Shown here: piece by piece, positions 45,439 to 52,023 of the stretch
Numbering within the stretch: position 1 is the stretch's first letter
Layout of the letters: the number at the start of each line of letters is the position of its first letter
Assembly (NCBI GenBank): GCA_024331045.1
Contig: JANDJC010000003.1
Location: 1 to 64,000 of the forward strand
DNA: 64,000 bases
DNA from: Nitrospira sp.
GTDB lineage: Bacteria; Nitrospirota; Nitrospiria; Nitrospirales; Nitrospiraceae
Direction: 5' to 3'
Translations under genes and position numbers: made by a program
Notes under the pieces: generated by a model
The model's input: the letters and a program-made list of their open reading frames with translations, nothing else
Told to the model about the DNA's origin: nothing
Databases searched by the model: none

Positions 45439-46308
45439 ATGAAAAACGGGTTCTTTCGCGGACATGGCCTGGGCAACGATTATCTCGTCATGGACCCCCA
45501 GGAGTTGACATTTAAGCTCACACCCAAGAACGTTCAACGTATCTGCGACCGCCATTGGGGACTGGGCAGTGACGGCATCCTGGTGGTGGCTCCCTCCAAG
45601 AAAGCCGACTTCGGCCTGCGGATTTTCAACCCTGACGGCAGCGAGGCCGAGAAATCCGGCAATGGACTGCGAATTTTCGCCCGCTATCTCCATGCCACTG
45701 GCAAGACGAGAAAGCGGCGGTTCACGGTCGAGACCAAGGGAGGAATTGTGTCGATCGTCGTCCATCTCGACCGCCACGGGGACGTGCGGGAGGCCACCGT
45801 AGAGATGGGGCATGCCACCTTTGAGCCGGCCACCCTCCCTTGCACGCTGAAGGTCACGGAACTCGTTCAACAGCCCATCGATGTGGCGGGCCGCAGTTTC
45901 ACCTTCACCGGCGTGAGTGTGGGGAACCCTCACTGCGTCCTGTTTAAGCCGTATGGAAAGTCGTGGTCCCGCGAAGAGCTGTTGGAGCTAGGCCCGGCCT
46001 TGGAAACCCATCCGTTGTTTCCCAAACGAACGAACGTCCAGTTGGCCGTCCCCACCGGCCGCAAGGAACTCTTCATTCTGATCTGGGAACGGGGAGCCGG
46101 GGAAACCCAGGCTTCCGGCTCTTCATCCTGTGCCGCAGCCAGCGCAGCCGTCCGGCTGGGGCTGGTCGAGAGCCCCGTCACCGTGAAGATGCCAGGTGGA
46201 ACCTTACTGATTGACGTCGCTCCAGATTTTAGCCTGACCATGAAGGGGCCGGTCGCCGAAGTCGCCCGTGGCTTCTTTAGCCCATCGTTCGTCCGAACCT
46301 TGCGATAA
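45439..46308 (+). CDS. Diaminopimelate epimerase homologue with Ser in place of both catalytic Cys
   Basis: A 289-residue protein of the DapF fold. It starts FFRGHGLGNDYLVMD and has both half-site motifs, but the first (normally AEMCGNG) reads AEKSGNG with Ser73, and the second (normally ACGTGACAA) reads ASGSSSCAA with Ser226. In true DapF these two positions are cysteines that act as the acid and base in racemisation. Other active-site parts (NPDGSEAE, VGNPH, WERGAGET) are kept. It may be a DapF-like isomerase of other function or an inactive form. I leave the symbol blank for this reason. Ribosome site GAAGGAG precedes the ATG. Confidence 0.85.
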   Translation: MKNGFFRGHGLGNDYLVMDPQELTFKLTPKNVQRICDRHWGLGSDGILVVAPSKKADFGLRIFNPDGSEAEKSGNGLRIFARYLHATGKTRKRRFTVETKGGIVSIVVHLDRHGDVREATVEMGHATFEPATLPCTLKVTELVQQPIDVAGRSFTFTGVSVGNPHCVLFKPYGKSWSREELLELGPALETHPLFPKRTNVQLAVPTGRKELFILIWERGAGETQASGSSSCAAASAAVRLGLVESPVTVKMPGGTLLIDVAPDFSLTMKGPVAEVARGFFSPSFVRTLR

Positions 46309-49887: not shown

Positions 49888-50709
49888 ATGTCTTCCCAGA
49901 CTCCTTTCCCCCGCGGTATTTTCAACCGTTTGTCCAAACAAGAATGTGAGTATTTTTTGGAGGTTATTCATTACACCTCCCAAGCAATGACCCCGGAACA
50001 GGTACGGGAAGTGTTGTTTCTCTTCCAGAAATACTTTCCCTTCAGCAAATCGTTGGGGGGGTTGGTTCGCCTGGGAGCAGACGGGAGCTTCGCCGGCTTT
50101 AGCAATGTCGTCAATGCCAACTTTCCTGATGAATGGCTGTACCTCTATTGGAAAAACGGCTTTGTTGAGATCGACCCTATCTTCAAATCAGCATTGGAGG
50201 CTCCGGGAACTCGGCATTGGCAAACTGTGTATCAAAGCCAATCGCCGTCGGAGCGAGAGCGACACTTCATAGAAAGCGCTCGCGAGTTCGGCCTGGGCGA
50301 CGGGATTACTACAGGGTCCCTCGATCAAACCTGCAAGCTGGCCACATTTTGCTCATTTGCCACCGAACAATCAATAGAGGCAACCGAGGCGGAACGGTTG
50401 CTACCCTTGATCGACTATTTGGGGTCTTACCTCCACCTGGCTCTGTTGCGGGTCGCACCCAAAGCTGCGCCTAAAACAAATCGATGCATCAAGGAGCTCA
50501 CCTCCCGCGAAGTCACGATCCTCAATTGGATGAAGAATGGAAAGACCAACTGGGAAATTGGCAAGATTCTCGGCGTCAGTGAGCGGACCGTCCGCTTTCA
50601 CATCGAACAAATCTTCTCCAAACTCGAGGTCACCTCACGCTCCCAGGCAGTGGCTATGGCCATTGAACATGGCCTTCCCGCCCTGCACGGCCTCCCTTCA
50701 GCCAGTTAG
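49888..50709 (+). CDS. luxR: LuxR-family AHL-responsive transcription regulator
   Basis: A 273-residue regulator with an N-terminal autoinducer-binding domain and a C-terminal LuxR-type helix-turn-helix (LTSREVTILNWMKNGKTNWEIGKILGVSERTVRFHIEQI, about residues 205-243). AHL contact residues are in place: W83, Y87, D96, P97 and W111. This indicates a true AHL receptor and not a NarL-type response regulator. ATG at 49888 follows CGGAGG. It converges with luxI, with 279 bp between the stops. Confidence 0.92.
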   Translation: MSSQTPFPRGIFNRLSKQECEYFLEVIHYTSQAMTPEQVREVLFLFQKYFPFSKSLGGLVRLGADGSFAGFSNVVNANFPDEWLYLYWKNGFVEIDPIFKSALEAPGTRHWQTVYQSQSPSERERHFIESAREFGLGDGITTGSLDQTCKLATFCSFATEQSIEATEAERLLPLIDYLGSYLHLALLRVAPKAAPKTNRCIKELTSREVTILNWMKNGKTNWEIGKILGVSERTVRFHIEQIFSKLEVTSRSQAVAMAIEHGLPALHGLPSAS

Positions 50710-50988: not shown

Positions 50989-51720
50989 TTATCCGCCGTT
51001 CCCGCAACCTGCGAGTGACGCCATCTGCCCTTCTGCGGTTGAGAGCGCCAGGGTTGATGTAGAAGGCACGTTGTTGGTCTTGGTCAACCACTCCAACATA
51101 CCGGGACGGAGAATCGCTGCCTGCAAGCGAAACTCCTCAAGATCAAGCAGCCCCCCAATAGAATACACCTCCGCCGGAGGAATGGCGACCGGTTTTCCGA
51201 TCGGCTGACAGGGCCAGCCCATCCGTTGAACGACCCGCAAGAGTTTCTGTTCCACGACCATGTAGGTATACCGTACATCATGGGCAAGGCACCATTGATA
51301 CATCCCTTTGAAGATAGTCTTCACCAAGCTGGCCGATAACCCCCGATCGGTTATCGATGGATCGACCCCCAATCTCGTAATCTCCGCCGTATCAGGCGTT
51401 TTGCGAACGACGTGGGATCCTACCAGACAAGCACTGAATTCGCTTTCGATCATGAAGGGAACGGGCGCATGGGTCATGCGGACCACCCCCAGCAACCGGG
51501 CCTCTGACGAGAAAACTCCGATCAACGTGCTCCACGCATCATAAATGTCTTCTTCAAGTCGGTCGGCCCGCTCCGGAACCCATTTCAATCGTTCAGCAAA
51601 GATCCGATGCCGCAACCGGTAGGCTTGTCGCAGCTCATCTTCATTGCACAAGGTTTTGACCAACAATCCCCCTTCGTAGAACGACAGCTCCCTTGCCCCT
51701 GCCAACGCCAATTCCCGCAT
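50989..51720 (-). CDS. luxI: Acyl-homoserine-lactone synthase (LuxI family)
   Basis: A 243-residue autoinducer synthase that makes AHL from SAM and acyl-ACP. The diagnostic set is complete with family spacing: R37, F41, W47, D58, D61, R81, E113 and R116 (RHRIFAERLKW, EEDIYD, EITRLGV). It is some 25-40 residues longer than LuxI of Vibrio, mainly at the C-terminus. ATG at 51720 follows AGGAGGAAACG, a near-perfect ribosome site; the open frame to 51873 runs through the lux-box palindrome and is not coding. It converges with luxR. Confidence 0.93.
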   Translation of the reverse strand: MRELALAGARELSFYEGGLLVKTLCNEDELRQAYRLRHRIFAERLKWVPERADRLEEDIYDAWSTLIGVFSSEARLLGVVRMTHAPVPFMIESEFSACLVGSHVVRKTPDTAEITRLGVDPSITDRGLSASLVKTIFKGMYQWCLAHDVRYTYMVVEQKLLRVVQRMGWPCQPIGKPVAIPPAEVYSIGGLLDLEEFRLQAAILRPGMLEWLTKTNNVPSTSTLALSTAEGQMASLAGCGNGG

Positions 51721-51816
51721 CGTTTCCTCCTGAGTGGTGGTGCCCAACGGGCACGCCTGGTAGATGGTTGTGTCGATGGTGTGGATGGAGGAATGGTTCC
51801 ACCTTGTCTCCAAGAG

Positions 51817-51842
51817 GTCACCTGGCGGACTCGCCAGGTGAC
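51817..51842. promoter_or_regulatory. Lux-box-like 26-bp inverted repeat upstream of luxI
   Basis: Two perfect 11-bp arms, 51817-51827 and 51832-51842, around the loop GACT. The central 20 bp (51820-51839) read ACCTGGCGGACTCGCCAGGT, with the ACCTG...CAGGT ends and exact 20-bp length of the classical lux box. It lies 100 bp upstream of the luxI start, and also upstream of the divergent kinase gene. A hairpin in RNA is possible but no T-run follows. Confidence 0.65.
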
Positions 51843-52023
51843 GGGGAGCAGGCGTTTGCCTACACTGCGTCAATCGGCTGACACCGAGGAGAAAAATGAG
51901 CGGAGAAAACGATCGGAACGTGAACAGAAGCTGGACGACAGCTCAGTTGATTATCCTATATGAATAAACCTATTGAGAGCCTCTCTTGGAAGCTCTCGGA
52001 AATTCGGGGAAGGAGGAAAACAA

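Follow-up and report, generated by a model that had tools for sequence, protein, structure and literature searches.

Serine at both catalytic cysteine positions of a DapF homologue, the predicted diaminopimelate epimerase of Nitrospira, in a branch found in many phyla

Background

Can a homologue of the diaminopimelate (DAP) epimerase DapF serve the lysine and cell-wall pathway when both of its acid/base cysteines are serine? According to reviews, cofactor-independent amino-acid racemases and epimerases use a Cys thiolate/thiol pair, and Cys is favoured over Ser in such enzymes for its pKa and its ease of desolvation. The question is raised by a gene in a 64,000-nucleotide stretch of Nitrospira sp. 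DNA (hereafter, the window; contig JANDJC010000003.1 of assembly GCA_024331045.1). The first-pass annotation of the window described the product as a DapF homologue with both catalytic cysteines replaced by serine, with fold and substrate-binding motifs intact and the gene not decayed; it suggested an isomerase with another substrate or mechanism, or a non-catalytic binding protein.

Results

The gene and its product

The features of the locus are as follows.
45439..46308, + strand: Ser/Ser DapF homologue (P0001), predicted diaminopimelate epimerase, 289 aa
45652..45654, + strand: Lys72 codon (of 152 Ser/Ser loci, 151 have Lys here and one has Arg; Lys is absent from Cys/Cys DapF)
45655..45657, + strand: Ser73 codon TCC, first catalytic Cys position (H. 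influenzae Cys73)
46114..46116, + strand: Ser226 codon TCC, second catalytic Cys position (H. influenzae Cys217)
46123..46125, + strand: Ser229 codon (Ser in 149 of 152 Ser/Ser loci; Gly in all Cys/Cys and Ser/Cys DapF examined)

The reading frame runs from the ATG at 45439 to the stop at 46308 on the + strand, and the translation was aligned end to end with solved DapF sequences, P. aeruginosa included. In this alignment, Ser73 (EAEKSGNG) corresponded to the catalytic Cys of EQCGNG and Ser226 (ETQASGSSSC) to that of TQACGTGAC, which bears out the replacement noted at first reading. P0001 passed the curated DapF cut-offs over its full length (NCBIfam TIGR00652: 228.2 bits, cut-off 114.65, residues 5-279; Pfam PF01678: E 3e-53, 179, cut-off 34.7). 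Since the two catalytic cysteines that mark DapF were absent, as in all 152 Ser/Ser loci, we assigned P0001 to the Ser/Ser branch of the homologous family and not to classical Cys/Cys DapF. The gene was full-length and under purifying selection (dN/dS of ~0.07-0.08 against the nearest Nitrospira, Nei-Gojobori method), in agreement with the view that it is not decayed. Sequencing error as the source of the serines was rejected on the ground that Ser stood at both sites in 152 of 152 loci.

The AF2 model of P0001 (pLDDT 95.1) had the double-domain fold of DapF, and the nearest PDB chains were all DapF (best, 8qzy; Z 36.9, rmsd 1.6 over 270 residues), with 34-40% identity to the best DapF structures. 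Ser73 and Ser226 were placed at helix N-termini in the model (helices 74-86 and 227-239); in DapF, the dipole at the helix N-terminus lowers the thiol pKa (PMC12039745).

Elsewhere in the window, a gene for a LuxR-type regulator with an autoinducer-binding domain (49888-50709, + strand; Pfam GerE, Autoind_bind) is convergent with one for a LuxI-type autoinducer synthase (50989-51873, - strand; Pfam Autoind_synth); the two likely form a quorum-sensing pair.

Extent of the Ser/Ser branch

The alignment of 201 rows consisted of 152 Ser/Ser, 44 Cys/Cys, 5 Ser/Cys and no Cys/Ser loci; the counts of 201 and 152 take in redundant loci, and at <88% identity the Ser/Ser loci amount to 64 rows, all of which also had Ser at both sites. 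In the relatives covering both sites the motif EAE(K/R)SGNG...ASG(S/T) was found with no exception. A tree of Ser/Ser DapF-like proteins, proposed earlier as a check, was reconstructed with 110 rows, and all 64 Ser/Ser rows fell into a single clade (support 100/100), which persisted (100/99) after 21 columns around both motifs were removed. The closest relatives of P0001 (92-80% identity) were from Nitrospira; those at 78-44% were from records labelled Latescibacterota, Gemmatimonadota, Planctomycetes, Rokubacteria, Methylomirabilota, Dadabacteria, Aquificota (Persephonella, Sulfurihydrogenibium), Bacteroidota (Flavobacterium panacis, Apibacter), Ignavibacteriae, Bacillota, Chloroflexi and cyanobacteria, although some of these taxon labels may be wrong because many of the records are MAGs. 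The Ser73 codon was TCN in 93 and AGY in 58 Ser/Ser loci, that is, both unlinked classes of Ser codon were in use. The deepest Ser/Ser branch was formed by diverged copies (motif ASGTGASA) from G396, G406 and G415 of family f18 of the phylum, in which both DapF types are present. Thus, Ser/Ser DapF is a large, ancient, monophyletic, multi-phylum branch of DapF and no oddity of a single genome.

Each of the three f18 genomes carried an operonic Cys/Cys DapF together with its diverged Ser/Ser copy. On contig C22 of genome G570, two Ser/Ser dapF copies (L196, L207) were separated by <500 bp, in which a partial VOC gene was located.

Conserved substrate contacts and clade-specific residues

The DAP contacts of Anabaena DapF are listed in PMC12039745. 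Their counterparts N13, N64, G74, N75, N163, N199, E217, R218 and G227 were invariant in the 152 Ser/Ser loci (one truncated row did not extend to position 13), and position 228 was Ser or Thr, so that P0001 retains the whole series (Asn, Asn, Gly-Asn, Asn, Asn, Glu-Arg, Gly-Thr/Ser). Because the invariant contacts include the distal L-amino-acid site, DAP is the expected substrate; with the model above, the earlier statement that fold and substrate-binding motifs are intact holds. Other residues were specific to the clade: Tyr15 (all 151 rows covering the site; Phe in Cys/Cys), Lys72 (Met, Phe or Leu in Cys/Cys), Ile79 (Cys in Cys/Cys) and Gln201 (149 of 152; mostly Asn or Glu in Cys/Cys). 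As for a new, compensating Cys, the only near-conserved candidates were C166 and C231, neither of which was invariant, and the idea was discarded.

Number of DapF copies per genome

P0001 was the single DapF homologue of the window's genome (84.7% complete); the second, Cys/Cys DapF that the first-pass annotation had advised looking for was not found there. A family search of 35 genomes of the genus gave DapF in 33, always as one copy (that of G026 was split over two contigs, and G015, 54% complete, had none), and a second draw across the phylum gave a DapF match in 28 of 29 Nitrospira genomes; all Nitrospira copies whose sequence was read were Ser/Ser. The exception in this draw, G459 (99% complete), had no DapF match of either type, whether through a gap in the assembly or through true loss. 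No second DapF was found in 32 of 37 Ser/Ser genomes from outside Nitrospira. Four of the five second copies were read and were Cys/Cys (L132-L135, from Paludibacter, one deltaproteobacterium and two Clostridium-like hosts); the fifth genome, Neobacillus cucumis, has a copy outside the four read. A search of 296 Bacteroidota genomes, with the first 84 residues of the Flavobacterium protein as query, gave only two matches in the Ser/Ser range of identity (100% and 68%, counting the genome of the query itself); neither of these genomes had a further match, and the remaining matches listed had 45% identity or less. Being usually the sole DapF of its bacteria, Ser/Ser DapF probably performs the same reaction with a different catalytic chemistry.

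The DAP pathway and its possible bypass

The window's genome encodes DapL (TIGR03540; 620 bits, cut-off 593), DapA, DapB and LysA, all over cut-off, and MurE with the TSDNPR motif, with P0001 as the sole DapF homologue alongside them. It makes LL-DAP via DapL and uses meso-DAP via LysA, and its MurE is probably a further user of meso-DAP. LysA was present in 33 of 33 genomes of the genus; the enzyme decarboxylates meso-DAP at its D-centre, and therefore LL-DAP must be epimerized by something.

Meso-DAP dehydrogenase is the known bypass of the DapF step. Among the 29 other Ser/Ser genomes tested, and in most Nitrospira (the single-contig genomes G022 and G024 among them), no homologue rose above noise; the bypass was also rejected for the window's genome, where the one partial match (21.8 bits) was at noise level. 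Sub-threshold homologues occurred in five Nitrospira, which kept the Ser/Ser DapF too; those at L118-L121 (G014, G021, G017, G005) scored 106-141 bits (cut-off 181). These five genomes, with G459, indicate that a bypass is possible in some Nitrospira. E. coli survives mutation of dapF, so a cell that lacks DapF activity need not die. A literature search on DapX as an alternative epimerase gave no useful result.

Displacement of the operonic gene

In families f2 and f4 of the same order, the gene order was lysA-dapF(Cys/Cys)-dapA-dapB. At the nine Nitrospira loci examined, dapA and dapB came straight after lysA, leaving no space in which dapF could lie, and the Ser/Ser dapF adjoined uvrC, away from the lys operon. 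The Ser/Ser gene probably entered the Nitrospira lineage by horizontal transfer; the newcomer would have displaced the operonic Cys/Cys dapF, which would then have been lost. The Nitrospira neighbours (VOC protein, GNAT, polysaccharide deacetylase, uvrC) were considered as a functional clue and set aside as synteny only. At four Bacteroidota/Ignavibacteriota loci (L089, L113, L101, L198), the Ser/Ser gene adjoined dapL and/or lysA (neighbours identified by sequence inspection).

An operonic Ser/Cys DapF in sister genera

Five Nitrospiraceae genomes outside Nitrospira (G450, G524, G545, G587 and G604; 95-100% complete) keep dapF in the lysA-dapF-dapA-dapB operon (L190, L191, L193, L194, L197) as their only DapF. 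Its motif, EFSGNG...ACGTG, has Ser for the first Cys and retains the second (codons AGC/TGC); dN/dS was ~0.05-0.16, indicating purifying selection, and in the tree of 110 rows these sequences formed a separate group of single origin within the Cys/Cys operonic lineage. Retention of this protein as the sole DapF implies that position 73 tolerates Ser in operonic DapF too. It shares with P0001 the natural Cys-to-Ser change at 73 in a sole DapF, but differs in having the second Cys, in lacking Lys72, Tyr15 and Ser229, and in its separate origin.

Comparison with known enzymes

P0001 resembles DapF of the H. influenzae Cys73/Cys217 type (8qzy, 4ijz, 1bwz) in fold, length, DAP contacts and pathway slot, and differs from it in the two acid/base residues, in Tyr15, Lys72, Ile79, Gln201 and Ser229, and, in Nitrospira, in lying outside the lys operon. 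In the proline racemase superfamily, 4-hydroxyproline 2-epimerase has a catalytically competent Ser/Cys pair and trans-3-hydroxyproline dehydratase a Ser/Thr pair (PMC4113996); both are like P0001 in fold class and in a natural Ser at the first base position, but have only one Ser base, another substrate and ~15% identity or less. The Ser-type motif of that superfamily has Asn93 three residues after Ser90 (PMC4113996); a Ser-x-x-Asn motif of this type was not present in P0001, where residue 76 is an invariant Gly. PhzF also has the DapF fold without the Cys pair, but it catalyses an isomerization in phenazine synthesis with other residues and a different substrate (19% identity). The active-site section of a class review (PMC8142540) names Cys/Cys, Cys/Thr and other pairs and no Ser/Ser amino-acid epimerase, and we found no Ser/Ser DapF in the literature searched.

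Discussion

We consider it likely that P0001, a member of the Ser/Ser branch, converts LL-DAP to meso-DAP as the functioning diaminopimelate epimerase of this Nitrospira. The assignment is well supported by inference from sequence, conservation, genome content, operon loss, phylogeny and predicted fold. Of the earlier interpretation, another mechanism thus appears likely, and another substrate or a non-catalytic binding role less well supported.

Serine is a poor base, and it is as a hypothesis only that we assign the movement of the proton to Ser73 and Ser226, perhaps helped by Lys72 and/or Tyr15. The serines would replace the thiol/thiolate pair at the same two helix N-termini, with Tyr15, Lys72, Ile79, Gln201 and Ser229 co-varying around them; the two helix dipoles would hold the bound DAP zwitterion between them, as they do in normal DapF, the alpha-proton would pass between Ser73 and Ser226 on opposite faces, and Lys72 and/or Tyr15 may tune or share the role of base. 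Cys-to-Ser changes engineered into DapF-fold enzymes strongly reduced turnover (PMC11602996; PMC12039745). As those scaffolds are adapted to Cys, the changes specific to the Ser/Ser clade may be what makes serine workable.

It is possible, though we hold it doubtful, that the role is the same and the catalysts are others: residues unique to the Ser/Ser clade, such as Lys72 and Tyr15, might act as the pair, as in alanine racemase but without PLP, with the serines structural or orienting the substrate. Lys72, Tyr15, Gln201 and Ser229 do accompany Ser/Ser and are missing, or almost so, from the 44 Cys/Cys loci, and the class review (PMC8142540) describes PLP racemases whose two bases are Lys/Tyr or Lys/Ser. 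However, neither catalytic sulfur of Anabaena DapF has a basic residue within 4 Å (PMC12039745), and Ser73 and Ser226 are strictly invariant.

A role in isomerizing or racemizing a different amino acid seems very unlikely. Relatives of the DapF fold do use histidine, O-ureidoserine and hydroxyproline, and 5 of 37 Ser/Ser genomes outside Nitrospira have a second DapF (Cys/Cys in the four read); yet the distal contacts Asn64, Asn163, Asn199, Glu217 and Arg218 do not vary, and both the loss of the operonic gene and the proximity to dapL/lysA argue for DAP. The window's genome makes LL-DAP, needs meso-DAP and has this one homologue. These pathway facts also weigh against a DAP-binding pseudoenzyme with an unrelated racemase making meso-DAP, a reading we think very unlikely: the canonical catalytic residues are gone and the DAP contacts kept, but it needs an additional epimerase beside the Ser/Ser protein in many phyla, with Cys/Cys DapF lost each time, and sits poorly with the parallel Ser/Cys change in an operonic DapF and with Ser, not random residues, being invariant at both sites.

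Conclusions

With P0001 read as a DAP epimerase, a widespread cofactor-independent amino-acid epimerase that works without cysteine, by a Ser/Ser or a Lys/Tyr-assisted pair, has probably replaced the thiol-based DapF in many bacterial phyla, at a step important for making lysine and the cell wall. If so, a natural, phylum-crossing DapF without catalytic Cys would mean that the thiol is dispensable; the Ser/Ser DapF would be predicted to be insensitive to oxidation and to reagents that attack thiols, and whole lineages may escape DapF inhibitors that target the thiol, aziDAP among them. The Ser/Ser DapF and the natural Ser/Cys variant provide a directly testable system, and the dapF of Nitrospira a clean displacement of an operon gene.
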